From Clostridiales bacterium (GTDB lineage: Bacteria > Bacillota > Clostridia > Christensenellales > UBA3700), in NCBI GenBank assembly GCA_014799575.1, contig JAAVHS010000018.1, forward strand, positions 35,148 through 69,795: a stretch of DNA of 34,648 nt. The letters run 5' to 3'. Made by a program: the position numbers and the translations under genes. Shown here one piece after another: positions 7,846-32,544 of this stretch; the stretch's first letter is position 1, and the number at the start of each line of letters is the position of its first letter. The notes under the pieces were generated by a model, which was not told the origin of the DNA, made no database searches, and worked only from the letters and a program-made list of their open reading frames with translations.

Positions 7846-8480
7846 GCGAATATAAAAGATTAACAAAGAAAGATAGATTAGGTAAATGGTATGTGAAATA
7901 TGCGAATGGCGACATTACGCTTGCGCCAAATAGAGCCTCGCAAGAAGTGTTTAACTATCTTGCCAAACTAGAAAACAAGATTGAGCGAGGAGAGTTTGTA
8001 GAGTTGCCTTGCAAGGCGGGAGATATTTTCGGTGTCAGTATCAGTATGAGTATGCAAAATCTAGAAGAGGTATTGAACCACGAAATATATGTGATAAATA
8101 AAAGCACTTGTCGATGCAGACGTAGGCGCAGTCGACGTAAACAATATCAAGAAGAGATTGAGCGCTTGAATGCCGAAAACGCAAACTTGACCGCACGTCT
8201 CGAAGTTGCGGAGCAAGACAAGGCGAGCCTAGAACGCACAACGCAAGAAGTAAACGAGACTTTGAGCGCAAATGGTATAAGCATTGATTGCGACGGCAAC
8301 GTCGTTGACGAAAACCGTAGTCAAGCCGTTAAAGTGTTTGCGGAAGAGTTGCAAAAGCGAATCGAGATTTTGCAAGTCGCTGACGATGAGAATGATATTT
8401 TCCGCTACGGCTTTGAAACAATGAAAGAGCAGATACCCGACATAATCGAAAAATTATTAAAGGAGTCGGCAGTCAAATGA
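7842..8480 (+). CDS. Hypothetical phage protein; N-terminus related to the upstream gene, C-terminal coiled coil
   Basis: MSEYKRLTKKDRLG matches MSDYKRMTERDEFG; C-terminal heptad-rich region; ATG 7842 overlaps the upstream stop. Confidence 0.6.
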   Translation: MSEYKRLTKKDRLGKWYVKYANGDITLAPNRASQEVFNYLAKLENKIERGEFVELPCKAGDIFGVSISMSMQNLEEVLNHEIYVINKSTCRCRRRRSRRKQYQEEIERLNAENANLTARLEVAEQDKASLERTTQEVNETLSANGISIDCDGNVVDENRSQAVKVFAEELQKRIEILQVADDENDIFRYGFETMKEQIPDIIEKLLKESAVK

Positions 8481-8980
8481 AAAAATCAGCAATGACGAGC
8501 GTCAACAAGCCATTCACGGACAAAATCTTCGCGCTAGTCGACGGCGACCAAAAGACCATTGAATGGCGCACAAAGCCGTTGCCGAGAGGCTTGCATTATG
8601 TGTATGAGACGAAGAACAAAGGCGGTTGCGGTAAGGTCATAGGCGAAATGACGATTATTGGATATATGAAGTTTTCTTCTATTGATAATATACCCGATAG
8701 AATAATAGGCTTTGGCAAAGTAGATAGAAAAGACTTGAAGAAGTACGCAAAAGGCAGACCGCTATATGCAAATGCGATTGTCAATGCAAAGCGATACGAT
8801 ACGCCGAAAGAGTTGGGCGAATTTTGGGCGTATAACGAAAACCTACAAAAATGCTTTGATGAGCAAGAGGGATATTGTTTCGAAGAGTGGAGCAGTTTTT
8901 GTCGTCCACTTACACAACCGCCTCAAAGTTGGCGCTACGTCGTGAATTGGCAATGCGTCATGGAGGCAGTGAAATGTTAG
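8477..8980 (+). CDS. ASCH-like domain protein
   Basis: FTDKIFALVDGDQKTIEWRTKPLPRG...FCRPLTQPPQSWRYV, typical of phage ASCH-like proteins. Confidence 0.6.
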   Translation: MKKSAMTSVNKPFTDKIFALVDGDQKTIEWRTKPLPRGLHYVYETKNKGGCGKVIGEMTIIGYMKFSSIDNIPDRIIGFGKVDRKDLKKYAKGRPLYANAIVNAKRYDTPKELGEFWAYNENLQKCFDEQEGYCFEEWSSFCRPLTQPPQSWRYVVNWQCVMEAVKC

Positions 8981-9772
8981 GACCTTACGAACTAAACAAA
9001 ATCTATTGCGAAGATTGCTACGAGGCGATAAAGAAGATACCCGACAAGAGTGTGGATTTGATATATACGGATATTCCGTACGACTTTGTCGGCAATGGCG
9101 GTGGCGGTGTCTTTGGCGAAAAGAGACGTAAATATCATGAAGAATACGAAAAGATTGCAAACAACACGATAGAGAATACTCTCAACAAGAAAAAGCGTAA
9201 AAGCACGTCAGATACGGAGGATATTGCTTTTGGTATAGATTACTCGATACTTGACGAATTTGTGCGAGTATGCAAGCAAATCAACTGTTATATTTGGTGT
9301 AGCAAAAAGCAAATACTCCCAATTATGGAATATTTCGTAGAGGGTCATGACTGCGTGTGGGATTTATTGCTATGGCATAAAACAAACCCAATACCGACTT
9401 GCAACAATACATATTTGCCTGACACGGAGTATTGTTTATATTTTCGAGAGCAAAGCGCTGGTCTCGACGGTAGCGTTGCAACAAAGTCAAAGTACTACAT
9501 ATCGCCTACGAATAAGCGTGATAAAGATAAATTTGAGCATAGCACAATTAAACCGTTGTCGTTTGTGCAGGACCATATAACGAATAGTACTCGGGGGGGG
9601 GGGTAGCGTTGTTCTAGATCCTTTTATGGGAAGTGGAACGACCGCCGTCGCTTGTAAAAATTTAGGACGGCAGTTCATCGGATTTGAAGTAAATCCGAAG
9701 TGGCATAAAATCGCCGTTGACCGCTTGAACAATATTCAAGCCAACGGACAAATGACATTATTTACAATGTAA
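8974..9772 (+). pseudogene. DNA adenine-type methyltransferase (beta-class), out of frame by 1 nt at an 11-G tract; possibly phase-variable
   Basis: Motif IV YTDIPYDF is in the frame starting at 8974; after GGGGGGGGGGG (9593-9603) the frame hits TAG; motif I GSVVLDPFMGSGTTAVACKNLGRQFIGFEVN continues in the shifted frame to TAA 9770-9772. Confidence 0.9.
9593..9603 (+). repeat. Homopolymer G(11) tract inside the methyltransferase ORF
   Basis: Direct reading: actc-GGGGGGGGGGG-tagcg. Confidence 0.95.
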
Positions 9773-9791
9773 AAATTTAGGAGGATAAAAG

Positions 9792-10364
9792 ATGACGGAC
9801 AATGAAATTGAAAAGGCTCTCGAATCTTGTAGAAACGTCGGTTCTTGCAAAAAGTGTCCTTGCAAAAAGTGTCCTTGCGAAAAAGACGGGAGTTGCAAAC
9901 AAATGCTTGGCGAGGCGCTTGACTATATAAATCGCTTAAAGCAAGAAATTAAAATTATGGACGCAATGACGATAGCGAAGAAGTCGGCGCAAACTGCGTT
10001 TGAATCTAGTGCAAAGCAATTCGGTAATATTAAGTTTATGTCGTTAGACTCAGATATTCAGAAGACGGCAAATAAGAATTATTTACACAAGCAAATATGT
10101 GAGTTTATACACGAGACGTATACAAGAAAAAACGCAGACTACGGCGATTCTTTCTCGAATATGTTCGCCGAGTATGGCATTATCACGGCGCTTGCTAGGA
10201 TTGGCGACAAGTACAATCGAATTAAAAATATTTACAAGAAAGAAAATCGCATACACGTCAAAGACGAGAGTGTCAAAGACACTTTGTTGGATATGGCAAA
10301 TTACTGCATTATGACGGTAATGGAATTAGAAAGCGAAAATAAAACTCAAAACGGAGGTAAATAA
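9792..10364 (+). CDS. DUF1599/nucleotide-modification-associated-domain-like protein
   Basis: ICEFIHETYTRKNADYGDSFSNMFAEYGIITALARIGDKYNRIKN...KDTLLDMANYCIMTVMEL; also two exact 15-bp in-frame repeats encoding CKKCP. Confidence 0.7.
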   Translation: MTDNEIEKALESCRNVGSCKKCPCKKCPCEKDGSCKQMLGEALDYINRLKQEIKIMDAMTIAKKSAQTAFESSAKQFGNIKFMSLDSDIQKTANKNYLHKQICEFIHETYTRKNADYGDSFSNMFAEYGIITALARIGDKYNRIKNIYKKENRIHVKDESVKDTLLDMANYCIMTVMELESENKTQNGGK

Positions 10365-10365
10365 A

Positions 10366-10836
10366 ATGAGTTACAATTACGAAAACGGCTACGACGAGAA
10401 CGTCGAACCCAAAAACTATGGCAGTACGCCGAAACCCAATGGCTTTACGCCTACTTGTAGATTTTGCGGACAAACGCAAATGCAAGGACCGTACGATAGT
10501 CAAGAGCAAGCGGACGAATCTGCAACGATGTCGTGCGATTGTCCGGAAGCAAGAGCCTATCAAGCGGAGCAGGAACGCAAGCAAAAGCGTGAAGAAAACA
10601 TCGTGAAATTAAAGTCACGACTCGGCGAATTGCAAGGATATTGCGAAAAGCGTCAAGTCAATTTCGACAACGCCCGATATGACACAGTATTGAAAATAGG
10701 TATTGACGTATTGGACGGCATTATAGATTCGGCTACGTTGAAATTTGCCCGTATGAAAGTATCGGTAGGTATCAACAACAAATCGAACCTTGTAATAAAG
10801 TTTACATACTCAGACGGTGCGTCCTTAGAAGTGTAG
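10366..10836 (+). CDS. Hypothetical phage protein with Cys motif
   Basis: 156-aa ORF; CRFCGQTQMQGPYDSQEQADESATMSCDCPEA. Confidence 0.7.
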   Translation: MSYNYENGYDENVEPKNYGSTPKPNGFTPTCRFCGQTQMQGPYDSQEQADESATMSCDCPEARAYQAEQERKQKREENIVKLKSRLGELQGYCEKRQVNFDNARYDTVLKIGIDVLDGIIDSATLKFARMKVSVGINNKSNLVIKFTYSDGASLEV

Positions 10837-10849
10837 TAGGTGGCAAGAG

Positions 10850-11341
10850 ATGTCAAAGTATAAAAAGAGAATGCTATACATGGGCATTATGCAAAGTGAA
10901 GTATTGAAAAACATACAACGCATAGACCCACGCATTGACAAGTCGCTTTTGAGTAAGATTGTCCATGATATTGTCTTGCCGACAAAACGCGTACTTAACA
11001 ATATATGCGAGACGTTACATTGCGACGTGTTGGACATATACGACGAAAGCGAAATAAACTTGTTGCCCGAAAAGCCTACTATCACGCAGGCTGAGGCAGT
11101 TGCAACCGACGTCAAGAGCAAAGAAAGTAAACCGCGCGTAAGCGAAGACAAGCGCAAAACAAACGTATACAATCTTACGGTCGAAGTAGATAGAGCAACG
11201 GCGCTAAGAGTTTTTTCAAAAGAATCATTGGCAAAGTTGGGGTATAGCGGAGTAACAGACTTTGTGCGCAAGTCAGTCGACGACCTTGCTCGTCGATTAG
11301 ACAAAATCGAGAACAACAAAAAAGTAGAAGACGGCAGATAA
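10850..11341 (+). CDS. Putative HTH DNA-binding protein
   Basis: DKSLLSKIVHDIVLPTKRVLNNICETLHCDVLDIYD resembles an XRE-type HTH. Confidence 0.6.
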   Translation: MSKYKKRMLYMGIMQSEVLKNIQRIDPRIDKSLLSKIVHDIVLPTKRVLNNICETLHCDVLDIYDESEINLLPEKPTITQAEAVATDVKSKESKPRVSEDKRKTNVYNLTVEVDRATALRVFSKESLAKLGYSGVTDFVRKSVDDLARRLDKIENNKKVEDGR

Positions 11342-11391
11342 GTCTGAATGTCTTTTAGAAGTCAAAATCAAACTAAATAGACAAAGAAAAA

Positions 11392-11641
11392 GGGAATTGC
11401 AATATGGCACTTGCAATTCCCCAAAGTTGACAAAGATATCAACTAACCAACTATAAATAGTATAGCAGAGTCAAGGCGAATTGTCAACTTTTTTGAGGTC
11501 GAAAAAGTGCTATTAGCGTCCTCGTAATCAGTATTAAGTTACCGACGAAATAGTATGTAAAAAAAGATGTCAATTATTCGCTTATTGACGGGGTCAAGGG
11601 GAAATCCCCTTGTCGTCTTGCAAGGGGCGAAACCCTTGCAA
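11392..11641. promoter_or_regulatory. Hairpin cluster; candidate rolling-circle replication origin
   Basis: GGGAATTGCAA/TTGCAATTCCC (11392-11421), CAAGGGG/CCCCTTG (11595-11612), TTGCAAGGG/CCCTTGCAA (11618-11641), directly upstream of the HUH gene. Confidence 0.5.
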
Positions 11642-11696
11642 TGAGAAGTGCGAGTTTTCTTTGTCGTTAGAATATCAGAACGGAGGGAATGAACTC

Positions 11697-12662
11697 ATGC
11701 AAACAACACTTAACAGTAGGTATGACGATTACGACGAGATATTTGCCTATACCGACACCAACGACGAGCGACTTGCAAGTCTAGACGATAAGTCGATAAT
11801 CAAATATCGCGTAAAGACAATCAAGAGTGGAAAGGTACTTGAAAGCGAAGTCTATCCGATATGGAATACGCACAAATCGACTAGCCGTGCAAGAAAGATA
11901 AGAGAGAGTCGAGATACTCAGAAACGTCTCAATGAGAAAAACGCGTTAAAGCGCATAATACGACTTGTCAATGCGAATTTCACTGACGACGATATTTGGT
12001 GTACTTTTACATACGAAACCGCAAAACTCCCAAAATCCGTAGAGGACGCGGAAAACGAATTCGTAAACTTCCTACGGAGATTGCGGTATCACGGGCGCAA
12101 GCGTGGTTTTCCGCCACTCAAATATGTCTTTTGGACAGAGTTCGAGGACGATGAAAAAAAAGGCAAAAAGCGTGTGCATCACCATATCGTGACGAATTTT
12201 CCCGACCGCGACCTTGCCGAAAAACTTTGGCGCGGAGGCGCAAGAAAGCAGACGAGACGATTGCAATCAGACGAAAACGGATACGAGGGTCTAGTGCGAT
12301 ATTGTATGAAAGACCCGAAAGGTAAAAAGCGTTGGAAAACGTCGAAAAACCTACGCGAGCCACAAATCACTATTGCCGATTACAAATTTACTCGAAAGAA
12401 AGTACGTCAAATCGTAGCGGGCGACATATCGGCAGTGGGAGTATTTGAGTCGATGTACAAAGGATATGAATTGCTCGAGGCATTTACATTTACAAGCGAA
12501 TTTGTGTCGGGCGCATACATATACGCTAAAATGACAAGACGTAATTATTATGGCTTGTCGCCGAATATAACAACAAAACGGAGGAGTAACAATGCCAAAA
12601 ATCACAAAGAAAACAGTCAAAAAAGTCGTTCCGCCGAAAGACGACGCGGACAAGCCACCTAA
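11697..12662 (+). CDS. HUH-family rolling-circle-type replication initiator
   Basis: WCTFTYE motif, HUH motif KRVHHHIVTNF, downstream YEGLVRYCMKDPKGKKRW; ATG 11697 with RBS GGAGG preferred over TTG 11610. Confidence 0.75.
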   Translation: MQTTLNSRYDDYDEIFAYTDTNDERLASLDDKSIIKYRVKTIKSGKVLESEVYPIWNTHKSTSRARKIRESRDTQKRLNEKNALKRIIRLVNANFTDDDIWCTFTYETAKLPKSVEDAENEFVNFLRRLRYHGRKRGFPPLKYVFWTEFEDDEKKGKKRVHHHIVTNFPDRDLAEKLWRGGARKQTRRLQSDENGYEGLVRYCMKDPKGKKRWKTSKNLREPQITIADYKFTRKKVRQIVAGDISAVGVFESMYKGYELLEAFTFTSEFVSGAYIYAKMTRRNYYGLSPNITTKRRSNNAKNHKENSQKSRSAERRRGQAT

Positions 12663-13146
12663 AAATTACAGCAGGTCAAAATACGAAGAAAAAGTAAAAC
12701 CGTACCTTTCCGACATTGAGCGGTATTATAGATGTGGAGTTACGGAGGGGCAGTTGTGCGCGTACTATAATGTAAGTAAAACGCAATGGATTCAATACAA
12801 GAAGAGTCACCTCGAACTAGACGAACTACTTTGTAATGCAAAAAAACAATTACAAGTAGACCTCGTCAATAAAGCGTATGAAGTTGCCATAGGCGGAGAC
12901 TACGTCGAAACAACGTCAGTTGAATACTATGAACTTAAAGACGGAGTAAAAGTCGTGACGGGCGGTAAGGTAACTAAGCATACGCGCCACTGCAAACCCG
13001 ACGTAGGTATGTTGCAATTTTTACTTATCAATCGTTTTTCCGAAGACTTTGCAAAAGACCCTCAAGTTATTGCGTTGCGTAAGAAAGCATTGGAACTTGC
13101 AGAGAAGAAAGGCACACCGTTGCCCGATAATTGGGGGGAAGTATAA
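12592..13146 (+). CDS. Terminase-small-subunit-like HTH protein
   Basis: YRCGVTEGQLCAYYNVSKTQWIQYKKSHLELDELLCNAKKQLQVDLVNKAYEVAIGG, typical of terS HTH N-termini. Confidence 0.6.
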   Translation: MPKITKKTVKKVVPPKDDADKPPKNYSRSKYEEKVKPYLSDIERYYRCGVTEGQLCAYYNVSKTQWIQYKKSHLELDELLCNAKKQLQVDLVNKAYEVAIGGDYVETTSVEYYELKDGVKVVTGGKVTKHTRHCKPDVGMLQFLLINRFSEDFAKDPQVIALRKKALELAEKKGTPLPDNWGEV

Positions 13147-13835
13147 TGGCGCTCGACCCGATACATGCTTTCTATTGTCGAAAAGACTACTTGACATTGG
13201 CGCAAGCGTGCAAAATCAAGAGTGGCGGAGTATGCGCTCGTTGCGGTGGTATTTTTGACATCAGCGGATTAAGACCACACCACAAAATAGAATTGACACT
13301 CGATAACGTAGATGACCCGAAGATTGCGCTCAATCAAGACAATATCGAAGTATTATGCCACGATTGCCATAATGCGACGCATCGTCGATTTGGTAGCGTC
13401 GTAGGAACGAAGCGCGTTTATCTTGTTCACGGCTCGCCTAGTAGTGGTAAAACAACTTATGTCGAAAGCGTTGCAACTCGTAACGACGTAATTGTAGACC
13501 TTGACAAGATACATCGCTCGATATGTATTTGCGGTTTGTATGATAAACCCGACGCAACAAAGCAGATTGCATTTGATATACGCAATCTTTTGCTTGACAA
13601 GATTTATCACGCAGGACCGCGGCGCAAGTGGCAAGATGCGTACATTATCGGAACTTTTCCCGACGTGTACGATAGAGAAAGATTTATAGCGGAATACAAC
13701 GCTGAACCTATTCACATCGCGACACCACGCGAAGAGTGTATCAGACGTGCGCAAGAAGATTTGCAACGTGGAGCGGTTTTGGATATGGTGCTTGGGTGGA
13801 TAGATAATTATTGGAAGAATTATAGCGAACGATAA
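13146..13835 (+). CDS. HNH endonuclease fused to P-loop NTPase/kinase-like domain
   Basis: CARCGG...RPHHKIELTLDNVDDP...NIEVLCHDCHNATHRRFG, then Walker A VHGSPSSGKTTYV. Confidence 0.85.
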   Translation: MALDPIHAFYCRKDYLTLAQACKIKSGGVCARCGGIFDISGLRPHHKIELTLDNVDDPKIALNQDNIEVLCHDCHNATHRRFGSVVGTKRVYLVHGSPSSGKTTYVESVATRNDVIVDLDKIHRSICICGLYDKPDATKQIAFDIRNLLLDKIYHAGPRRKWQDAYIIGTFPDVYDRERFIAEYNAEPIHIATPREECIRRAQEDLQRGAVLDMVLGWIDNYWKNYSER

Positions 13836-13838
13836 TAT

Positions 13839-13850
13839 CCCCCCGGGGCG
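13839..13850. promoter_or_regulatory. Candidate cos/packaging site
   Basis: CCCCCCGGGGCG, containing the palindrome CCCCGGGG, in the AT-rich gap between the HNH gene and the terminase genes. Confidence 0.35.
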
Positions 13851-13961
13851 ATTAAAAATTTTGAAACGCAAAAAGACTCCAAGTGCCAAATCAAAAAAAT
13901 ACACACCGAAAATTTGACTTTTTTTCTCGAAAAGTTTGAAAAATAAATTTATGAGGCTGAA

Positions 13962-14321
13962 ATGAAGAAAGATAGCAATAAAAAAATGTCAATCGACAAA
14001 CTTGCAGACGAAGAATATAATCGTTTGATTGGACTTTATAAAAAAGCAAGCGTCGACGAGATTAAACTCCAAGTCAATGACCGACTTATCAGAAAGACGG
14101 CAGAGTTGTACGCGAGATTAGAAGATATGCAGAAATTGCCGTCGATAATTTATAACAAGAAAAATCCTTACGAGCAGAAAGAGACGGCAGTTGGGAAAGC
14201 GCGTGTCAAGTACATGGCGCAATACTTGAACTGTATGCAAAAACTCAACAAAGAACTTTTGGGAGAGATTGTGGAAGACGATGACGACCTCAACAAATAT
14301 AATGACGACGACCAAGACTAA
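13962..14321 (+). CDS. Putative P27-like terminase small subunit
   Basis: 119 aa immediately upstream of terL; synteny plus charged helical sequence. Confidence 0.6.
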   Translation: MKKDSNKKMSIDKLADEEYNRLIGLYKKASVDEIKLQVNDRLIRKTAELYARLEDMQKLPSIIYNKKNPYEQKETAVGKARVKYMAQYLNCMQKLNKELLGEIVEDDDDLNKYNDDDQD

Positions 14322-16155
14322 TCGAAAATCGGTTGACACCGATTGGACATTAGTCAATTCTGATATTGTACCTATTGACGGTTGGGAGATTCTCAACGAA
14401 GAAATCGGGGGTAGACATAGTTTTCTTATTGAGTATTACAAGCGTTGTCGCTCGGGCGAGATAATAATCGGTCGAGAACTGAAAACACAACTTGAAATGC
14501 TGATACAAGATATTGTCTACCGCTATGATACTTATCGCTTTATTCTCGGCGGTGCGCATAAGCGTATCAAGTTTATCGAAAATGAAATCAAGCATTTTGA
14601 GTCGCCTTTTGCCGGACAACCTTTTATTTTGACGCTTTGTCAAAAAGCGATTGCGGAGGCAATTTTCGGATTTGAGATATTCGATACCGAATTGCTCGGC
14701 GGTGGACGTTGGGTGCGTAGATTTAAGGAAGTTTTATTGCTTATCGCTAGAAAAAACGGCAAGACGCCGTTTGCATCGGCATTGATTCTCGCAGATTGGT
14801 TTTGCGGCGAGGCAGGACAAAAAGTAATGTGCGCGTCAAATGACTATGACCAAGCAGGATTGATTTTCGATTGTATAAACAATTTCCGAGAAGAATCTAG
14901 CGCCATGGTAAAAGTGACACGCAAAAATATTAAAGGCATTTTCTTCGGAAATCCAAAGCAACGTCGCAAGACGGGCAAGTTCTCAGCGCAAAACAAAGGC
15001 ACGATAAAAAAGTTGTCGGCGAAAACGAACGCAAAAGAGGGACGTAATCTAAAAACCGTAATTGTGGACGAAGTACACGAAATGAAAGACCGTTCGACCG
15101 TAATGCCTCTGCGTTCGTCGCTTACTACACAAGACGAGCCGTTGTATATCGAAATCACGACGGAGGGAGTAGTTAGAGACGGATACCTTGACGAACGCTT
15201 GGCTGACGCAAGAAAGGTATTGAAAGGCGAGTTAGATCGTCCGCGTTGGCTTGTTTGGTTGTATACACAAGATAGTGAGTCGGAAATATGGAACGACGAG
15301 AAGTCTTGGACAAAATCAAATCCGATGTTGCACGTCGTTAAGAAAGTGTCGGACTTGCGAGACTTAGTGGAAGAGGCAAGGATTAAAGGCTCGCAACGAG
15401 CGTTTACGCTTGCAAAAGAGTTTAATTTGAAACAATCATCTAGTAAAGCGTGGTTGCGTTTATTAGATATTGAGGCTTGCGACGGCATTTTTAATATTGA
15501 GGATTTCAAAAATTCTTGGTGCATTGTCGGCGTAGATTTAGCAGAAACAAACGACCTTTGTAGTGCGACATTTTTATTTATGAAACCGAATGACGACGTC
15601 AAGTATTTATTTACGATGTACTTTGTAACCGAAACGAAAGCAAACGACCCTAACGCAACGGATAGTCCGACAAATCCCGAAAAAAAAGATTATAGAGAGT
15701 GGGAACGTATGGGATTATGTCGAGTTGTTAAAGGCAATGTAATCGACGACGACGTAGTCGCGAAGTATTTGCGCGAGATATATGACAAGTATCATATCCG
15801 CCCGTACCGCGTTGGATATGACGAATGGCACGCAAAGGAATTTGCAAAATTGACGGCTAAGACTTTCGGCGACGACGTTTTAATCAAAATCAAAATGTCA
15901 TACGAGGCGCTGAACACGCCAATAAAAACGGTGGAGTTAGATCTAATCGCGCGTCACATAAATTACAACAAAAACGAAATTTGCAAGTGGTGTTTTCAGA
16001 ATACCGCAGTCAAGCACGATAAAAATGGTTTTGTTATGCCCGAGAAAGTAGCCGGATATATCGGGAATAAGATTGACGGCACGGTGTCAAAGATTATTGC
16101 GTACGCCACGCTACGCGAATGTAAAAGCGCATTTATTAGTAAAATTGGAGGCTAA
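14302..16155 (+). CDS. terL: Phage terminase large subunit (HK97 type)
   Basis: LLLIARKNGKTPFASALILADW, VIVDEVHEM Walker B, VGVDLAETNDLCSATFLF nuclease motif; exact start (14281 or 14302) uncertain. Confidence 0.93.
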   Translation: MTTTKTNRKSVDTDWTLVNSDIVPIDGWEILNEEIGGRHSFLIEYYKRCRSGEIIIGRELKTQLEMLIQDIVYRYDTYRFILGGAHKRIKFIENEIKHFESPFAGQPFILTLCQKAIAEAIFGFEIFDTELLGGGRWVRRFKEVLLLIARKNGKTPFASALILADWFCGEAGQKVMCASNDYDQAGLIFDCINNFREESSAMVKVTRKNIKGIFFGNPKQRRKTGKFSAQNKGTIKKLSAKTNAKEGRNLKTVIVDEVHEMKDRSTVMPLRSSLTTQDEPLYIEITTEGVVRDGYLDERLADARKVLKGELDRPRWLVWLYTQDSESEIWNDEKSWTKSNPMLHVVKKVSDLRDLVEEARIKGSQRAFTLAKEFNLKQSSSKAWLRLLDIEACDGIFNIEDFKNSWCIVGVDLAETNDLCSATFLFMKPNDDVKYLFTMYFVTETKANDPNATDSPTNPEKKDYREWERMGLCRVVKGNVIDDDVVAKYLREIYDKYHIRPYRVGYDEWHAKEFAKLTAKTFGDDVLIKIKMSYEALNTPIKTVELDLIARHINYNKNEICKWCFQNTAVKHDKNGFVMPEKVAGYIGNKIDGTVSKIIAYATLRECKSAFISKIGG

Positions 16156-16156
16156 T

Positions 16157-16345
16157 ATGGAAAGACAAAACAACGATAAATTACCATGGGCGTATTATCA
16201 ACGCGAAATACGTTGTCCTCGACATAATAAGTTGCTTGGTAGATATGACGGCAGATGTGGGGTAATAAATGCGACATACTTTTGTCCACAATGCAAGCAA
16301 GAGTATACATTTACTATCAAAGGCGAGAAAAATCCAAATTTTTAA
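16157..16345 (+). CDS. Com-like zinc-ribbon protein
   Basis: IRCPRHNKLLGRYDGRCGVINATYFCPQCKQEYTF; ATG 16157 with RBS GGAGG. Confidence 0.65.
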   Translation: MERQNNDKLPWAYYQREIRCPRHNKLLGRYDGRCGVINATYFCPQCKQEYTFTIKGEKNPNF

Positions 16346-16357
16346 CAAGTCTAGCGG

Positions 16358-16383
16358 TATTTGTCCAAAAGTTCGGACAAATA
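16358..16383. repeat. Perfect 9-bp inverted repeat (operator or terminator-like)
   Basis: TATTTGTCC-AAAAGTTC-GGACAAATA. Confidence 0.6.
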
Positions 16384-16399
16384 ATTTCAAAAATAATTG

Positions 16400-16428
16400 T
16401 TGACAATGCGGATTTTATCGGTTATAAT
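16400..16428 (+). promoter_or_regulatory. Perfect-consensus sigma-A promoter
   Basis: TTGACA (16400-16405), 17 nt, TATAAT (16423-16428). Confidence 0.8.
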
Positions 16429-16434
16429 GAAGAA

Positions 16435-16550
16435 AATTTAATATACGTCAGTAGCGTGTACTCCATTTTTACAAAGTGAAAACAAGTGAGTCGGTGCTTT
16501 AATTTAACGCGTAATGCGCGTTGAGTTAGGTATCGGCTCATTTTTTATTT
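16435..16550 (+). ncRNA. Candidate small structured RNA or attenuated leader between terminase and portal
   Basis: Long wobble-rich stem 16487-16540 enclosing AACGCG-TAATG-CGCGTT, followed by TTTTTTATTTT. Confidence 0.45.
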
Positions 16551-16568
16551 TGTCAAGGAGGTGGAGAC

Positions 16569-17870
16569 GTGGGAAAATTTATAACGGCTATCAAGAAATT
16601 GCTAGGTTGGCACAACAAAGAAAATGTTTATAGCAGTCGTTTTATAAATGGAAACAATGTGTTGTTTTCGTCCTACGGAAGAGATATACACGCAAGCGAC
16701 ATTGTTGCAACTGCGTTACATCGTGTCTGCGAAGAAGTATCCAAATGTACATTGAAGTCGGTCGTAGAATTCGAGAATCCACGTCGCATAGAAGTTCAAA
16801 AAGATGATATAAACAAAGTGTTTTCCGCTCGCGTAAATCCATTGTGTGGATTGAAAGACTTCTTATATAAAATCGCTTGGCTGACGCTTGTCAATAAAAA
16901 TTGCTTTATATATTGGCAGTATGACGAAGTACCGATTAAGATTGACGGTAGGGAATACGTCAAGCGCGTTACAAAAGGTTTTTATCCGATAGAGGCGACA
17001 AGAGTCAAAATGTATATGCTTGACGACGAAATGCGTATTGAACTTACAAGCGCTGACGACTCGGTTGTCTTGGATATGCCGTACTCAGACGTAATACATA
17101 TTCGCCACTCATACGGAGCGCATAAGTATTTAGGCGGTAGCGCGAACGGCGAGAATTATAAAAACTTGCTTGCCAACTTAGAGACAATGCACGTTATACA
17201 CGAGTCTATACCCAAAACGATTAAAGCAGGCTTGGCGCTAAAAGGCGTATTGACAATGAAGACTGTTGCCGACGTTGATGCAAAGAAATTAACCCGAGAA
17301 GAATTTGAAGAACATTTGTTTGATAGCGAACTCGGCATTATTGCAACTGACTATGAGAGCGAATTTAATCCGGTCAATATCAATGTGACTGATATACCGA
17401 CAAATATACTTACGTTTTTGCGCGACGAAATACTCGCGCCATTTGGGGTATCTTTGCCAATTTGGCAAGGTAAATATACCGACGACGATTATACGGCTTT
17501 TTATCAGACGGCAGTTGAGGGACTTTTACTAGAAATTGCCGAAGCATTCAAAATCACGTTGTTTACCGACAAGCAACTTGCGTATGGACACAAAATCAAA
17601 TATTACGATAGAGTAGTGCAGTCATTGTCTTTTGCGCGTCGTTTGGAAATCGCCAAAATGACGCAAGAGGACGCGCTACTTTCACGAGACGAGCGCCGTG
17701 AATTGCTCGGATATGAACCCGACGGACAACCTACGAGAATGTCGTTGAATTATATCAACGTATCTCTTGCGGATAAGTATCAAATGGACAAACTCAAAAA
17801 TCAAAAACAAAATATATCGGACGGCAAGACCAAAACCGACGAGGAGGACAAAAATGAAAATACCGATTAG
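16569..17870 (+). CDS. HK97-family portal protein (GTG start)
   Basis: 433 aa; FINGNNVLFSSYGRDIHASDIVATALHRVCEEVSKC, DVIHIRH, APFGVSLPIWQGKYTDDDYTAFYQTAVEGLLLEIAEAF; between terL and protease. Confidence 0.92.
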   Translation: MGKFITAIKKLLGWHNKENVYSSRFINGNNVLFSSYGRDIHASDIVATALHRVCEEVSKCTLKSVVEFENPRRIEVQKDDINKVFSARVNPLCGLKDFLYKIAWLTLVNKNCFIYWQYDEVPIKIDGREYVKRVTKGFYPIEATRVKMYMLDDEMRIELTSADDSVVLDMPYSDVIHIRHSYGAHKYLGGSANGENYKNLLANLETMHVIHESIPKTIKAGLALKGVLTMKTVADVDAKKLTREEFEEHLFDSELGIIATDYESEFNPVNINVTDIPTNILTFLRDEILAPFGVSLPIWQGKYTDDDYTAFYQTAVEGLLLEIAEAFKITLFTDKQLAYGHKIKYYDRVVQSLSFARRLEIAKMTQEDALLSRDERRELLGYEPDGQPTRMSLNYINVSLADKYQMDKLKNQKQNISDGKTKTDEEDKNENTD

Positions 17871-18582
17871 GAGCGTAAGCGAACAAAATCCCGAAATTAT
17901 TAAACGCTTATTGCCGAGCAACGTGCAAGCGTTGACATTACGGTCTGATGATATGGAGGGCGTTATTGACGGCTATCCTATTGTGTTTAATCAACGTACT
18001 GCTATCGGCAAATGGTTTTTTGAAGAAATCGACTCGCACGCTCTTGATAATGCCGATTTGAGCGACATCAAACTTTTAGCAAATCACAATGACATGATGA
18101 TTCCCGTCGCGCGTCATAGACGCGGTAAACGGTCGACAATGGATATAAATGTCGACGACGTTGGTTTGCATATCAATGCAAAACTTGACATTGCGAACAA
18201 TGCGACAGCGCGAGAATTGTGTAGCGCGGTTATGCGTGGCGACATTGAAGATATGTCGTTTGTGTTCGGCATTGAAGTATCGGGCGACGAATGGTTTGAC
18301 CTTGACAAACCTATGCCCATAAGAAGAATAACAAAAATATCAAGAGTTTTCGAGGTATCCGCTGTCAATGACGGCGCATATCCGCAAACTTCGATAAATG
18401 CTCGCTCGGCGACGTTGGATAATGACAAAAAGACGTTGGATAACGTCCTCGCCGAAGCGTTGGAAAACGAAAAGAGAGCAGAAGAGCGCGCCAAGGCGTT
18501 AATATTGGCAAAACAAAAATTTTTATTAAAAGAGAGGTACAAAAACTATGACAATCAAAGAACTATTGGAAAAAAGAAGTAA
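17854..18582 (+). CDS. HK97-family prohead protease
   Basis: MEGVIDGYPIVFNQRT...ANHNDMMIPVAR...GDIEDMSFVFGIE...VFEVSAVNDGAYPQTSI; ATG 17854 with RBS GAGGAGG. Confidence 0.9.
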   Translation: MKIPIRSVSEQNPEIIKRLLPSNVQALTLRSDDMEGVIDGYPIVFNQRTAIGKWFFEEIDSHALDNADLSDIKLLANHNDMMIPVARHRRGKRSTMDINVDDVGLHINAKLDIANNATARELCSAVMRGDIEDMSFVFGIEVSGDEWFDLDKPMPIRRITKISRVFEVSAVNDGAYPQTSINARSATLDNDKKTLDNVLAEALENEKRAEERAKALILAKQKFLLKERYKNYDNQRTIGKKK

Positions 18583-19765
18583 ACTTCTTTCTGAAATTGA
18601 CGGGGCAGACGAAAAGCGTTTTGCCGAAATCAAACTTGAACTTGACAAAATCGACTTCCAAATGAAACAAGCGGAAGACGAAGAGCGCAAAAAGAAAGAA
18701 GAGGCGGAAGAGCGCGCGGCGCGTGAGAAGAACGCAAACGGCGGTAGCGCAAACAACAAAATCGTGTTGTTTACAACCGAAGAAGAAAAGCGTAAGGCTC
18801 AAATGGAAGAAATTGAGAAACGTGCGTCGAGTCTTAAAAAGGGCGAAAAAATAACGGTAGAAGAAAGAGCATTATCCTCGTCGTCGGTCGCACTTGGTAC
18901 GGCAACAAGCAACGAAATCAATCCGGCATTTGAGCAAGTCGGTACTCTTGATAAACTCGTAAACGTCGTTCACTTGGAGGGAACGGGCGCAGAAAGTTAT
19001 AAAAAACCGTTCATGAAAAATATCGGCGAGGGCGAAATTGTAAAAGAGGGGCAGTCGCCGAGTACGTCCGCTGAACCTGAGTTTGATTACGCAGAGATAA
19101 ACAAGGTAAAAATCGTTGCTTACGCAGAGATAAACGAAGAGATTGAAAAACTTCCGTCCGCAAACTATCTTGCAGAGGTTGACAAGGCTGTTCTCGGCGC
19201 ATGGCGCAAAAAAGTAATTGAACAAATGGTTAAAGGTCAAGGTAGCGGTAACAGCGAACTTGTCGGAATTGTAAATGCTCCCGAGAAAATCATAGCGAAG
19301 TCGCAGAAGAAAACAACAACTACTATCGACGAAAATACGCTCGATAGCATTATCTTTGCTTACGGCGGAGACGAGAATGTAGAAGGCGACGCAACTCTCA
19401 TACTCAATAAATTGACGCTCAAAGAATTTGCAAAAGTTAAAGGCTCGGATAAACGTCGCGCCTACGACATTGTAGTGCGTGGCAATTCGGGTACGATAAA
19501 CGGTATTCCGTTTGTATGTACTAGTAAATTGCCAGCGTATGGCGATGATAAGTCTGCAAGCACACCTTACATGATTTACGGCAAGTTGCAAGGCTACGAA
19601 CTTGCGTATTTCACCTATCTTGAAGTCGAGAAGTCTAAGGACTATAAGTTCAAGGAGGGCGTAATTTGCTTGAAAGTAAGCGGACACGTCGGAGGTTCAC
19701 CTGCAATGTACAACGGCTTTATGACGGTATCGAAAAATTCGTCTACACAACCGGCAAAAGAGTAA
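18548..19765 (+). CDS. HK97-family major capsid protein
   Basis: N-terminal coiled-coil delta domain, then EINPAFEQVGTLDKLVNVVHLEGTGAESYKKPF, GINGIPFVCTSKLP-type capsid fold sequence. Confidence 0.92.
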   Translation: MTIKELLEKRSKLLSEIDGADEKRFAEIKLELDKIDFQMKQAEDEERKKKEEAEERAAREKNANGGSANNKIVLFTTEEEKRKAQMEEIEKRASSLKKGEKITVEERALSSSSVALGTATSNEINPAFEQVGTLDKLVNVVHLEGTGAESYKKPFMKNIGEGEIVKEGQSPSTSAEPEFDYAEINKVKIVAYAEINEEIEKLPSANYLAEVDKAVLGAWRKKVIEQMVKGQGSGNSELVGIVNAPEKIIAKSQKKTTTTIDENTLDSIIFAYGGDENVEGDATLILNKLTLKEFAKVKGSDKRRAYDIVVRGNSGTINGIPFVCTSKLPAYGDDKSASTPYMIYGKLQGYELAYFTYLEVEKSKDYKFKEGVICLKVSGHVGGSPAMYNGFMTVSKNSSTQPAKE

Positions 19766-19819
19766 TCATCATTTATTTTTGGGTCAGAGTGAGTCAATAC
19801 AAAACGGAGGTATTTATCA

Positions 19820-20086
19820 ATGAAAGAAGTTGAGAAGATAGCACTAAAAATAGGATATGGCGCTTCTGACCCTCAAAAGATAGAAGAGATTCAAGGCTAT
19901 ATAGACGAGGCGGTCGAATTTATGAAGACGAGCGGTGTTGCCGAAAAAGAAATTAGTACGCACACCGCATACGTCGTCAAAAGCCTTTGGGCGGACTATC
20001 GTGATAGTGGCGTAGAAGAGAGCATCATCAAAAAAGACGGTATAGTTGTCGCGCTAATATCGAATTTGCGGAGGCGTAAGAAGTGA
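19820..20086 (+). CDS. Head-tail connector (gp6-like)
   Basis: 88-aa helical protein directly after the capsid gene. Confidence 0.65.
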   Translation: MKEVEKIALKIGYGASDPQKIEEIQGYIDEAVEFMKTSGVAEKEISTHTAYVVKSLWADYRDSGVEESIIKKDGIVVALISNLRRRKK

Positions 20087-20496
20087 GTAAACAACAACGT
20101 CCCAAAAAGCGACCTACGCTGATCAAGTTTGGCGTACCGAAAAACATATATGTCGCAGGGCAAGGAAATACGATTGAGTATGAATTGATAAGCCATGTTG
20201 TCGGCACTGACGGCGACGGCAAAGCGATTCAATCAGATTGCTTTTATTGCGAGTGGCTGAATTCTTACGGCGCAGTTGCTATCCAACAACAAGCCGACGG
20301 AGTATCGCAATCGGCAAGAATTCGTATGACCTACGTCAAGGCGGTATACGACGCGTTGAAAAAAGACTCAATAAGAATCTACAAGCACGGAATTATTGAC
20401 GATGAACATTGCTTTGTTTTATCGTCTTCGCCCGATAACTATGCCGAGAGCAACAAGATGTTGGAATTCAATGTCAAGCATTATGAGGTCAAGTAA
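20083..20496 (+). CDS. Head-closure/head-tail adaptor protein
   Basis: Position and size. Confidence 0.6.
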   Translation: MSKQQRPKKRPTLIKFGVPKNIYVAGQGNTIEYELISHVVGTDGDGKAIQSDCFYCEWLNSYGAVAIQQQADGVSQSARIRMTYVKAVYDALKKDSIRIYKHGIIDDEHCFVLSSSPDNYAESNKMLEFNVKHYEVK

Positions 20497-20925
20497 ATGT
20501 CGGTTAAGAATATCGTTCAAGAAATATTGGATAATACGTTGTTGCAACACGGCGTTTTGTCGCATCATCTTCGCCATGTCAAGACCGACGCAATACAAGG
20601 ACTTGACGTCAAGATAAACGACAACGAGTATGTAGTTTATAGGTCCGTATCGAATGGCAATGGTGTTTACGGCGACGGCAGAAAGGAAATTGGTCGCAAG
20701 TACGTTGACGTCAATTATTACTACAAATACGAAAAGGACGATACGCGTTATAGTGAAGTAGAACGTCGTGTTGAGGATATTAAAAAAGCCTTTTTGGCGA
20801 GCAAGCGCTTTCTATTAAAGAACGACGCAAGCGATATTTACGACATTGACAATCCGTATCGCGGTATCAACGTAGAGTTTTTATTCGTGGAGGCGGTCAA
20901 TAGTGAGCAACATATCAACTCATAA
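20497..20925 (+). CDS. Tail completion/head-tail joining protein
   Basis: Position and size. Confidence 0.5.
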   Translation: MSVKNIVQEILDNTLLQHGVLSHHLRHVKTDAIQGLDVKINDNEYVVYRSVSNGNGVYGDGRKEIGRKYVDVNYYYKYEKDDTRYSEVERRVEDIKKAFLASKRFLLKNDASDIYDIDNPYRGINVEFLFVEAVNSEQHINS

Positions 20926-21334
20926 ATATGCACTTGACGAATTGCCCGACGCGCTTGACGAAATGCTAAAAGACTTTTTGCAGTCGTCGTTTGAGGCTCG
21001 TCAAGATGCGGTGCAAGCAGGAGCAGAAGTATTCAAGTCAGCGATAGAGTCCGCTACGCCGAAAGATACGGGCGAAATGGCTCAGTCGTGGAAGATTAAA
21101 ACGAAGTACGTTGACGTTCGATACGTTGGTAATACACGCGTTGCAAAAGGTCAAGTACATCGCAAGACGAAGAGTGGAGGCAAGGGCGAGGCGCGTAGCA
21201 ACGTACCGCTGACCAATGTCTTGGAGTATAGCGCAAAATCGCCACATTATGGTTTTATCCGTCAGACTTTTGACGCGGTAGAGCCTCAAATATTCTCAGC
21301 AATGAAAAAAACTATTGAAAATGGAGGTAAATAA
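20903..21334 (+). CDS. HK97 gp10-like head-tail protein (GTG start)
   Basis: ARQDAVQAGAEVFKSAIESATPKDTGEMAQSWKIK...NVPLTNVLEYSAKSPHYGFIRQTFDA. Confidence 0.8.
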   Translation: MSNISTHKYALDELPDALDEMLKDFLQSSFEARQDAVQAGAEVFKSAIESATPKDTGEMAQSWKIKTKYVDVRYVGNTRVAKGQVHRKTKSGGKGEARSNVPLTNVLEYSAKSPHYGFIRQTFDAVEPQIFSAMKKTIENGGK

Positions 21335-21337
21335 AAA

Positions 21338-22006
21338 ATGAGTAAAAACGACGCACTTGTCCGCTTTAATATAAAAAATGCAAAGTGGGCGTTAAAGTTG
21401 GAAGACGGCAAATATGAAGTGCCGAAATCTTACGGCAAAATATCGAGAAAGATTGCTATTGAAGCCGATTCTAATACTAAAAAGATATTTGGCGACGGCG
21501 AGTGTCAAGCGTACATCATCAACGATAAAGGCAAGAGTGTGGTTTTGACTACAAACACTCTTAACAACGAGTTTGAGCAGGACATGGGACGCAAAATGGA
21601 GACGGCAAAAGGAATTGCAAGCATTAAGCAACAAAAAGTCCCGACTTTCGCTTTGTACTTTGAGACCGAGGGAGTTATGCCCGACGGCAGAATGGGTATA
21701 CTTGCCAAATCGTGGCTCTATGGTATGAAGTCGCCTACTGCGCCGTCAGAATCGTTTGAACAAACAACTGATGATATAAACGAGACGGTATACGAAACAT
21801 CATTTGAGGCATCGGGTGAGATACTGAAAGACGCAGACGGCAAAGAATATAAGGACGAGAAGACAAAATGTCCCGTCAGAGTATGGTTGCTTACTAGCAC
21901 TCCCGATATGCCCGACTTTGATACTTTCGGCGACACGGTTGTTATGCCAACTATGAGAGATACAAAGGCGGAGACTACGACTCCGAACACCGCGGAGGGC
22001 GAATAA
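21338..22006 (+). CDS. Major tail tube protein
   Basis: 222 aa, upstream of the chaperones; EADSNTKKIFGDGE...EGVMPDGRMGILAKSWLYG. Confidence 0.8.
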   Translation: MSKNDALVRFNIKNAKWALKLEDGKYEVPKSYGKISRKIAIEADSNTKKIFGDGECQAYIINDKGKSVVLTTNTLNNEFEQDMGRKMETAKGIASIKQQKVPTFALYFETEGVMPDGRMGILAKSWLYGMKSPTAPSESFEQTTDDINETVYETSFEASGEILKDADGKEYKDEKTKCPVRVWLLTSTPDMPDFDTFGDTVVMPTMRDTKAETTTPNTAEGE

Positions 22007-22395
22007 TGTTTAAGACAAAAATACCCGTTCAAGAAAAAATCGACGACGGCAACGGCAATATCAAAACGCAAAAGAGAGAAATCGCAGTTACGGTCGATAC
22101 GTCTATCTTTGCGGAGGAAAGGTGGGAAAAATATTTTCCTACAAATGCGAAAAGCGAAACGCTTTTTGCATATATTGAGCGAGTTCACGAAAACAGAATG
22201 CTTGATAAAGCGCATATTTTGTCTAATCTAAAAGCATTATACTGCTTTCTTGAAAGTGACGAACTTTCGGACTTCAAGTCATTTTGTCAACTATTCGACC
22301 TTGCAGACGTCAAATATCTTCAAACGCTTTGCGACAAGATAAAATGGATTTTCGGCATAGTCTTGGGTAGTAGTGTATCGCCCCCAAAAAACTAA
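22006..22395 (+). CDS. Tail assembly chaperone (G-like)
   Basis: Position between tail tube and tape measure; ends in a slippery A AAA AAC TAA. Confidence 0.8.
   Translation: MFKTKIPVQEKIDDGNGNIKTQKREIAVTVDTSIFAEERWEKYFPTNAKSETLFAYIERVHENRMLDKAHILSNLKALYCFLESDELSDFKSFCQLFDLADVKYLQTLCDKIKWIFGIVLGSSVSPPKN
22386..22392 (+). promoter_or_regulatory. Programmed -1 ribosomal frameshift heptamer A AAA AAC
   Basis: In 0-frame register: cca aaa aac taa. Confidence 0.85.
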
Positions 22396-22709
22396 AAGAG
22401 CGCAGTCAAGAATTGTTGCAGTTGTATGACAAGTTGTACCCAAACGGCAATCGCAACAAGCCTATGACTGCGCCGAGAGTAATTACATTATTGCAAAAGT
22501 GCGTTGATTTGAAAATACAAGATTGCTTAATTCAACGCTTACATTTTACCGATTTATACGTTCTAATTTTGTCGATTGATATTGAGAATATCAAGCAAGC
22601 ATTGAAACGCGAACGGCAAGCAAGAGCGAAAAAATCAAACTCCGAAGTCCGAGACATATCGGGAGCGGAGGCGGTCAAGTTTTTGAAAGGAGGTGGCGGA
22701 TTTGGCTGA
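22392..22709 (+). CDS. Tail assembly chaperone T-like extension made by -1 frameshift
   Basis: Continuous -1 frame from 22392 (LKERSQELLQLYDKLYPNGNR...) with no ATG or RBS of its own. Confidence 0.8.
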   Translation, partial: LKERSQELLQLYDKLYPNGNRNKPMTAPRVITLLQKCVDLKIQDCLIQRLHFTDLYVLILSIDIENIKQALKRERQARAKKSNSEVRDISGAEAVKFLKGGGGFG

Positions 22710-24771
22710 TAATATTCGTGGCTTAAAAGTAGAGATAAGCGCGGACGCAACGAAATTCAAAAAAGAAGTCAAAGATTTGCGTTCGGACGTGAAGTCGGCA
22801 AAATCCGACCTTGCCACGTTGCAAAAAAGCCTCCAACTTGACTACAACGAAGAGAAATTCGCCGAGGCGCAAAAGGTTGCTCAAAATGCAATAGACAAGA
22901 CGTCAGAACTTGCAGACAAATTGCGCGGACGGCTAAAAGACCTTGAACAAAGCGGAAATGTTGACACCGATGAATATCAGAAAGTGCAAAGCGAGTTATA
23001 CAAGGTTGAGTTGCAAGGCGCGCAGTTGCAAAAGCAATTAGAGCAAATCAATCAAATCAAGTTTGATAATCTCTCTAAGCAAGTGACTGACGTCGGCGAT
23101 AAGATAACGTCGGCAGGCAAAGCGTTAGCGCCTTTTTCGGCTATGGCGACGGGCGCTGTCACGGCTCTTGGCGCAGTGGGTAAGAAAGCAGTTGCAACGG
23201 GCGACGATATTGCCACACTTGCGACTAAGTACGATATGTCGTCCGACTCATTGCAACGCTTTAACTACGTTGCCTTGCAGACTGACGTTCAAGCGGAAGA
23301 TTTATACAAAGCATTTACGAAAGTTAGAGCAGGCGTGGCGGATATGGCTACGGGAACGGAATCAACCGCAAGCAAAGCGTTGCAACAACTTAATTTAGAC
23401 TTTGCGTCGTTCGACGGCAGTGAAGAGCAATTTTACGCAATCGCCGACGCATTGTCAAATATGGGCGATAAGACGCAAATGGTCGCAATCGCAAATGATA
23501 TATTCGGCGACAAACTTGCGACAAATCTTTTACCGCTCATATACGCCGGCACGGACGCAGTGAATGAGTATCGCAACGAGTTCGACGAATTGGGCGCAAT
23601 GACCGAAGAGCAAGTCGCAAGCATGGCGGAGTTTGACAACGTCTTGAACAAGATAAACACGCAAGTCAAAAACTCTATCACGCAAATAGGCGCGTCGCTA
23701 CTTCCTATTATGGAAAAAGTCGCCGATTGGGTAAGCAATACAATTATTCCGAAATTGCAAAGTCTTGCCGAGTGGTTTAACAATTTGACGCTCGGACAAC
23801 AAGAATTTGCATTGAAGATAGCGCTCGTTGTCGCCGCGCTTGCGCCTTTGACAATGGGCATTGGCAAACTTGTAACGACAATCGGTAGCGTAATAGAAGT
23901 CTTGCCAAAATTACAATCGGCGCTTTCTTCGTTGGCATCACACCCGATAATCTTAATCGTAGCGGCGGTCGCGGTTATTCTTGCGTTATTGTATAGTCGT
24001 TGTGAATCTTTCCGAGAGGCAATCAATAATCTAGTCGGCACGTTGGGACAGGCGTTGCAACCTGCTATGACCGCAATATTGCAAGTGTTTAATACTCTTA
24101 TGCCGATATTGAACGAGATAATCAATATTGTTGGCGGAGTGCTTGCAGTGGCAATAAACATCTTGTCGACTGCGTTGCAACCCGTGATTGTAGGAATACA
24201 AATGCTATTCGGTATTTTGCAATCGCTCTTGTCGGTTGCGCTCATACCGTTGCAACTCGTCTTACAAGCGTTGCAAATACCTTTGCAAATGCTTGGCACT
24301 TTGTTGAATTGGCTTGCTCCACTATTTGGCGCGTTTGCGAATCTAGTGCAAGGCGTGTTTAACGTTGTGCTTAAAGTGATAAATTCGGTATTGACGGCAG
24401 TTGAAAGCGCGATAAATTGGTGCATTGACAAAATAAATTTGCTTATTGACACGGTCAACGACAAAATGGGGTGGCTCGGCGTTCACCTCGAGAGGGTGCA
24501 ATCCGTATCGCTCCAAATCGACACGTCCTCGCTTGATAATATCAACGATATAAACGGCACACTAGACACTACGTCGCCCGATATTATAAGCGGTGACAAC
24601 GTCTATGACAAAATAGGCGCAGGCGGTATCAATGGCGATGTGTACAACAATGATTATAGCACGAATAATACGACGCAAAACATAACGGTCACTATTCAAA
24701 ATTATGCCGAAGAAGTCGACGTCGACGATCTAGTGCGACAAATCAATGTGAAACTTGCGGAGGCAATGTGA
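22702..24771 (+). CDS. Tape measure protein
   Basis: About 690 aa, N-terminal coiled coil, central hydrophobic segments; TTG 22702 after AAAGGAGGT (GTG 22693 is the alternative). Confidence 0.88.
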   Translation: MADNIRGLKVEISADATKFKKEVKDLRSDVKSAKSDLATLQKSLQLDYNEEKFAEAQKVAQNAIDKTSELADKLRGRLKDLEQSGNVDTDEYQKVQSELYKVELQGAQLQKQLEQINQIKFDNLSKQVTDVGDKITSAGKALAPFSAMATGAVTALGAVGKKAVATGDDIATLATKYDMSSDSLQRFNYVALQTDVQAEDLYKAFTKVRAGVADMATGTESTASKALQQLNLDFASFDGSEEQFYAIADALSNMGDKTQMVAIANDIFGDKLATNLLPLIYAGTDAVNEYRNEFDELGAMTEEQVASMAEFDNVLNKINTQVKNSITQIGASLLPIMEKVADWVSNTIIPKLQSLAEWFNNLTLGQQEFALKIALVVAALAPLTMGIGKLVTTIGSVIEVLPKLQSALSSLASHPIILIVAAVAVILALLYSRCESFREAINNLVGTLGQALQPAMTAILQVFNTLMPILNEIINIVGGVLAVAINILSTALQPVIVGIQMLFGILQSLLSVALIPLQLVLQALQIPLQMLGTLLNWLAPLFGAFANLVQGVFNVVLKVINSVLTAVESAINWCIDKINLLIDTVNDKMGWLGVHLERVQSVSLQIDTSSLDNINDINGTLDTTSPDIISGDNVYDKIGAGGINGDVYNNDYSTNNTTQNITVTIQNYAEEVDVDDLVRQINVKLAEAM

Positions 24772-24772
24772 T

Positions 24773-25618
24773 ATGAGAAAATTCTTTTTGCACAATTCAA
24801 GCAGGACGAAATCATTTGATTTGAACACTGCAAAGGCTTTCGCAACCGAGCCGTCAGGCTTGGGTAATTCGTTTAGCACGGAATATAAAGAAAGCGACAA
24901 GGGCAAACATCTTGTCAACGTTAAACCGAATTTTGACCCGATAACATTGAAAATTTATTTTAATGCAGACGGGACGGACGGATACGCAAACTATAAAGGA
25001 CTAATGTTGTTTTTGGAAGAGTGCGGAAAGTCGCCGTTTTTGTTTGAGTACAACGACGGAGTAACTGACAAGTATTGCGACGTAATTCTCAAATCGTCGG
25101 GAAAAAGTGAAAAGGATTCGGACGGAGTATTCTGCGAGCCTTTTACGTTCGAGCGCCAAAGTTATTGGTATGAGCGCCTCGAGGGGACTTTTGAATTAGA
25201 GAATACGTCGTCTTCACGCTTTCCGCTAGGATTTCCGTTTGGCTTTTCGGGGCGAGTACTCAAAACGAAGAAGTATGTATCGAATCCTTTTCACATTGCG
25301 TCGCCTATTACGATAACTATATCGGGGCAGATACGCGATAATATTCGAATATACATCGCTACGTTAGACGATAAAATCGTATCAGAAATTAAACTCTCGA
25401 CAAATTGCGAGGTTGGCAAAGTAATTGTTATCGAGCCTAATACAAAGAAGATAACTATTACTGAAAACGGAGTAGAGTCCAACGGTTACGGACTTATTGA
25501 CAAGACAAAGCAATCGTTTTTGTATCTACCCAAAGGTGATTATTATATCAGTTCTGATATGACGGGCGAGGACAAAGGAAAAATCACTTTTACAATTAAA
25601 CGATATTTGCTTGATTGA
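24773..25618 (+). CDS. Distal tail protein (Dit-like)
   Basis: MRKFFLHNSSRTKSFDLNTAKAFATEPSGLGNSF... after the tape measure; ATG 24773. Confidence 0.8.
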   Translation: MRKFFLHNSSRTKSFDLNTAKAFATEPSGLGNSFSTEYKESDKGKHLVNVKPNFDPITLKIYFNADGTDGYANYKGLMLFLEECGKSPFLFEYNDGVTDKYCDVILKSSGKSEKDSDGVFCEPFTFERQSYWYERLEGTFELENTSSSRFPLGFPFGFSGRVLKTKKYVSNPFHIASPITITISGQIRDNIRIYIATLDDKIVSEIKLSTNCEVGKVIVIEPNTKKITITENGVESNGYGLIDKTKQSFLYLPKGDYYISSDMTGEDKGKITFTIKRYLLD

Positions 25619-25629
25619 CGGAGGTCGGA

Positions 25630-26754: not shown

Positions 26755-26766
26755 GAGGCAAAGAAA

Positions 26767-31197: not shown

Positions 31198-31249
31198 GAC
31201 TCTTAATCATTGGGTCCAGAGTTCGAGTCTCTGAAGGCGCACCAAAAAG
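31198..31249 (+). repeat. attR core with tRNA-Lys 3' remnant
   Basis: 52-bp identical copy of 469-520. Confidence 0.93.
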
Positions 31250-31275
31250 ACAAGTCGAATTCGACTTGTCTTTTT
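31245..31275. terminator. Palindromic terminator, the original host tRNA terminator displaced to attR
   Basis: AAAGACAAGTCGAATTCGACTTGTCTTTTT. Confidence 0.8.
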
Positions 31276-32475: not shown

Positions 32476-32544
32476 TATGTGTTCTTCGTAGGTTTCACGC
32501 GTTCTTTACTCCGACAAAGACGAAGTTCTTATCGGAGGTTTTTT

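Follow-up and report, generated by a model that had tools for sequence, protein, structure and literature searches.

A candidate attenuated leader RNA between the TerL and portal genes in one clade of Clostridia prophages

In attenuators such as the SacY/LicT RAT leaders and the expression platforms of riboswitches, one RNA strand pairs either with an upstream partner, forming an antiterminator, or with a downstream partner, forming a terminator with a U-tract, ahead of the first gene. The leader RNA described here is predicted to be built in the same way, but unlike those attenuators, it matches no Rfam family and sits before phage portal and capsid genes. In the pR'-tR' late leader of phage lambda (6S RNA, Q antitermination), a promoter is followed by a short RNA, a terminator, and then the late genes; the order is the same here, whereas the leader lies between TerL and portal, its competing helix is conserved, and no Q-like protein was recognized among the proteins scanned. 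In phage Mu, the Com protein binds a hairpin in the mom mRNA and changes the structure of that mRNA, and its target motif, determined by SELEX, is GAGNNCC (PMC6483171). As in com/mom, the gene for a small zinc-binding protein lies just upstream of a structured leader; in contrast to the leader analyzed here, however, Mu Com activates translation, and the zinc-ribbon protein encoded next to the leader is only weakly similar to Com in sequence. For the HK022 put RNA and for conAn/LoaP in Gram-positive mobile elements, an RNA element close to the transcript start is reported to affect termination (PMC9378689, PMC8955417), and the present leader likewise lies early in a transcript of a mobile element. 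Put and conAn/LoaP are reported to modify polymerase processively, whereas here the element is interlocked with a single terminator, and a NusG-like protein was not recognized.

The leader is found in a prophage within the window, that is, the whole 34,648-nucleotide stretch of DNA that was analyzed, the host being a 1.75-Mb MAG. The tRNA-Lys 3' end occurs as a direct repeat at about 476-520 and 31205-31250, which marks the likely ends of the prophage (attL/attR), and the integrase gene is at 607-1941. Outside the prophage, a single ORF of 706 aa (32479-34599) matches both MatE and a cytidylate-kinase-like domain. Upstream of the leader, an HNH/terminase-type gene, a small gene, TerL (14281-16155), and a 62-aa zinc-ribbon gene follow one another; downstream come the portal, protease, capsid, and tail genes. 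Searches with the portal, TerL, and zinc-ribbon proteins yielded 17 further distinct loci, which with the window make 18 loci in one TerL clade. The features of the region, in window coordinates, are as follows.

16157-16345, plus strand: Com-like zinc-ribbon gene of 62 aa with CPxH...CPxC, immediately downstream of TerL, in 18/18 loci; candidate regulator of no clear family
16400-16428, plus strand: promoter, TTGACA-N17-TATAAT, sigma-A type, 12/12 match
16435-16551, plus strand: predicted leader RNA of about 117 nt, its start placed from the position of the -10 element
16435-16444, plus strand: A/U-rich 5' end, AAUUUAAUAU, with a similar sequence at the same place in most loci
16442-16460, plus strand: hairpin H1, from folding and RNAalifold
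16460-16463, plus strand: S1 (ACUC), the predicted antiterminator strand, covarying with S2
16466-16482, plus strand: hairpin H2 (UUUUUAC-AAA-GUGAAAA), which S1:S2 closes in the predicted antiterminator fold
16484-16541, plus strand: predicted terminator hairpin H3, with S3 (GCUC) at 16536-16539
16488-16491, plus strand: S2 (GAGU), common to the antiterminator (with S1) and the terminator (with S3)
16541-16551, plus strand: U-tract, TTTTTTATTTT, read in the sequence
16555-16562, plus strand: portal Shine-Dalgarno sequence, read in the sequence
16569-17870, plus strand: portal gene (PF04860), the first after the leader, with a GTG start codon at 16569

A preliminary description of this DNA, made from the sequence alone, had placed an autonomous consensus promoter at 16400-16428, and this assignment is borne out: the exact hexamers and spacing occur nowhere else in the 19 kb scanned (9000-28000), and a promoter-like sequence is present in 18/18 clade loci, with TTGAC[AT] in 16 of them. 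L005 and L020 have a weak -35 element, yet they carry TATAAT with an extended -10. The sequence that follows the -10 element is also alike in most loci. Conversely, in 36 TerL loci from outside the clade, a regular-expression scan of the first 500 nt downstream of TerL found no promoter of this kind, and in those out-of-clade loci that were read, a portal-like frame directly follows TerL. The inverted repeat upstream of the promoter, proposed earlier as a 9-bp operator at 16358-16383, is real (ATTTGTCC/GGACAAAT, 8 bp at 16359-16382), but its reading as an operator was discarded, since it is not conserved across the clade; in L019 and L103 there is no space for it because the zinc-ribbon gene extends into the -35 hexamer.

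The RNA predicted to start at this promoter agrees well with the compact structured RNA of about 115 nt with a terminator that had been anticipated; its U-tract, the predicted end, lies 17 nt upstream of the portal GTG. The segment 16435-16570 folds with an energy of -59.5 kcal/mol, against a mean of -27.3 for shuffled sequences (z = -9.4; 0/200 shuffles as low), and when both strands of the window are scanned in 20-nt steps, no other 120-nt stretch is as stable as the leader. The reverse complement of the segment reaches only -19.8 kcal/mol, and 16 of the 55 pairs in the window's own fold are G-U; such strand specificity points to an RNA and not to a DNA palindrome. Of the stems originally listed, the terminator stands, and the outer stem and the AACGCG/CGCGTT stem both exist, but they are parts of one terminator stem at 16484-16541 instead of 16487-16540, and hairpins H1 and H2 and the S1:S2 helix had been overlooked. 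A leader peptide was rejected, the RNA having no ATG before 16513. Comparison with Rfam 15 agrees with the earlier failure to recognize an RNA family: at gathering scores the leader is without a match and only five tRNAs elsewhere in the window pass, whereas a permissive scan of 16340-16600 gave only two sub-threshold snoRNA matches, judged to be chance. No description of the element was found in the open-access literature. The segment GAGTCGGTGCTTT shows a 13-nt likeness to the end of the Streptococcus pyogenes tracrRNA, which was dismissed as chance because L021 and others have GGGTCGATATGCT in its place.

The same order, i.e., zinc-ribbon gene, promoter, A/U-rich 5' end, H1, H2, terminator, and portal, is kept in 18/18 loci. 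L104 has an insertion (7942-8605) that separates the zinc-ribbon gene from the RNA and consists of a hicAB-like pair and a promoter-like sequence belonging to that pair; the RNA is intact after it, directly before the portal. The covariance model R1 finds all clade members tested except L104, and across 297 genomes of the order its sole strong match is the window's own. Out-of-clade matches to the terminator pattern or the covariance model (L157, L159-L161, and L197-L201) were set aside, as they resemble ordinary terminators. H2 is variable; in L018 (2487-2684) it is about 90 nt longer than in the other loci. A module consisting of H1 and S1 (a hairpin followed by GUGCGC) occurs three times in tandem before the terminator in L024 (2338-2537), L025 (6620-6841), L101 (8122-8351), and L102 (8075-8305). 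Loci L101 and L102 come from the isolates Pumilibacter intestinalis CLA-AA-M10 and Pumilibacter muris CLA-AA-M08, respectively. A type III toxin-antitoxin system, considered for the tandem modules of L025, L101, and L102, was rejected: there is no adjacent toxin gene, and the portal follows.

The pairing of S1, S2, and S3 was counted in a fixed-piece alignment of 16 loci (A7), hand-assembled from pieces chosen by eye, for which the slid and shuffled controls are clear; this alignment was used because MAFFT alignments of the whole unit put the 5' part in the wrong place for L005 and L020. S1 and S2 are paired in 64/64 cells, 14 of them doubly changed (0/500 shuffles as high), whereas slid versions pair in 20-58% of cells. 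Compensatory changes affect three of the four pairs, the S1/S2 classes being ACUC/GAGU, ACCC/GGGU, AUCC/GGAU, GCUC/GAGC, and GCGC/GCGC; on the TerL tree, these classes require seven changes, with GCGC/GCGC arising in two places. The S2:S3 arms of the terminator are paired in 97.4% of cells, with double changes in 6/12 pairs. S1 differs from S3 (ACUC versus GCUC in the window, AUCC versus AUUC in L019, and GCUC versus GCUU in L103) and is thus no copy of it; therefore, each has separately been kept complementary to S2. RNAalifold applied to eight compact members recovered H1 and the terminator, with double changes in 12 of 33 pairs; the basal stem of H1 alone shows little covariation. Conservation and covariation in homologous phages, the check suggested at the outset, thus came out in favor of the structured RNA, the unit being kept throughout the clade and its stems covarying. 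Two of the hallmarks of an attenuator are present, namely, an intrinsic terminator (stem and U-tract) ahead of a downstream gene and an upstream strand that can pair with the 5' arm of the terminator, to the exclusion of the terminator, in 100% of cells and with covariation. As S2 can pair with only one of S1 and S3 at a time, the predicted antiterminator and terminator folds are mutually exclusive.

The energy model gives a graded picture. For the window, S1:S2 has a probability of 0.78 as long as S3 is yet to be transcribed and of 0.000 once the RNA is complete. In L019, L021, L022, and L108, a shifted pairing of S2 beside S1 is preferred, and in L025, L101, L102, and L104, the model does not favor the last S1 at all and thus lends S1:S2 no support there; the GCGC elements of these four loci are self-complementary and, in some, repeated. 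Masking of the portal Shine-Dalgarno sequence by S1, seen in the window's own minimum free energy fold, was rejected because it fails where S1 is ACCC.

On balance, the leader is probably a cis-acting attenuator that heads the virion-structure genes and gates the head and tail operon. The promoter match, the terminator, the fixed site before the portal, and the two competing pairings have both sequence and comparative support; from these we infer transcription, default termination, and regulation of the switch. Transcription would start at the promoter after TerL and the zinc-ribbon gene, and the first ~117 nt would end at the terminator, before the portal ribosome-binding site. During synthesis, H1 would form first, followed by H2 closed by the S1:S2 helix, the antiterminator; the emergence of S3 would then displace S1 from S2, so that transcription would stop by default and leave a short RNA. 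If some factor stabilized H1-S1:S2-H2, the terminator could not close, and polymerase would read through into the portal, protease, capsid, and tail genes. Without such a factor, S1:S2, of just 4 bp against a far more stable terminator, may have little effect. As a counterpoint, this terminator would also lie in the path of polymerases coming from terL, which would have to read through it. Among the proteins scanned, which include several small ORFs without a family, no known antiterminator was recognized.

The zinc-ribbon protein is the leading candidate for the factor that tips the fold, because its gene is next door and co-distributed, although this is a guess that we hold rather doubtful. 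The zinc-ribbon profile matches in only 4 of the 297 genomes of the order, the same ones that have the clade's TerL; as all 18 loci are from one clade, this co-distribution amounts to about one event. Resemblance to Com is weak: no Com model in Pfam was hit at E<=1 by seven zinc-ribbon members, two Com-type PHROGs were each reached at E of about 0.03 by one member of the 18 proteins, and hhalign against Com gave a probability of 34% (P 4e-4). AlphaFold predicts a small beta fold with moderate confidence (pLDDT 81, pTM 0.54), and a PDB fold search with this model returned no significant match. The Mu Com motif GAGNNCC was also sought in the leader; it occurs, as GAGUACC, only in L021, L022, and L108, and S1 of the window and of most other loci lacks it. 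That a Com-like protein binds H1-S1:S2-H2, holds off the terminator, and switches on the virion genes, as an RNA-protein antitermination pair not described before, is accordingly a proposal that we consider unlikely.

The best surviving alternative, albeit an improbable one, is a stand-alone, trans-acting prophage sRNA, a moron-like unit with host or phage targets whose place before the portal is incidental. A consensus promoter plus a strong terminator does make a complete small-RNA gene, and all loci keep both. However, the unit always lies directly before the portal start, even with hicAB-like genes inserted nearby, and a plain small RNA would not need an S1 complementary to its own terminator. 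The hairpin loops vary freely, so that a conserved seed for pairing with a target in trans was not seen in them. It is on these grounds, the fixed place, the competing pairings, and the varying loops, that the cis leader is favored over a stand-alone RNA, in line with the option of an attenuated leader controlling portal expression raised in the preliminary description.

Less probable still is a leader of the lambda pR'-tR' kind, in which a phage antiterminator joins polymerase at the promoter or early in the transcript and takes it past the terminator while the RNA folds matter little. The succession of promoter, short leader, terminator, and late genes, and the similar sequence after the -10 element in most loci, would fit this explanation, but it does not predict a covarying S1:S2 helix, and it calls for a Q-like protein, of which none was recognized among the proteins scanned. 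We give little credence to a simple insulator, i.e., an unregulated short RNA whose terminator limits leak into the structural genes in lysogeny, with a hairpin that may shield the portal mRNA at its 5' end: the terminator is indeed very strong, but neither a competing helix nor a dedicated strong promoter is required to stop leak.

A role of the terminated RNA as a packaging RNA that acts between TerL and the portal, like the phi29-type RNA that assembles on the portal/ATPase and is needed for packaging, is highly improbable, its position being only suggestive. RNA anti-CRISPRs (Racr) exist in phages (PMC10651486), and H1 with its 8-nt tail superficially resembles a type I-E repeat, but mimicry of a host CRISPR repeat by H1 and the following 8 nt is just as improbable: within the genomes searched no such mimicry was found, Cas1 is present in 0/5 genomes carrying the clade's TerL, the CRISPR systems found in the same genus have Cas9-sized genes and unrelated repeats, and S1 covaries inside the RNA. 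The window's own genome yielded no CRISPR array with Cas1. CRISPR arrays of two repeat types lie beside Cas9-sized genes in the same-genus genomes G015, G010, G007, G008, and G013 (L176-L180).

To return to the cis-acting leader, an RNA built for a choice between two exclusive folds probably gates the virus-particle genes. The principle, attenuation, is already known, whereas the RNA family is absent from Rfam. If the proposal is correct, capsid and tail production would be gated apart from the packaging motor through the choice of RNA fold, and the covarying S1 and S2 strands offer direct mutations for testing that choice. The RNA would then be a family new to Rfam, from prophages of little-studied gut Clostridia that include two named Pumilibacter strains, and it could reveal a role of small Com-like zinc-ribbon proteins outside Mu.
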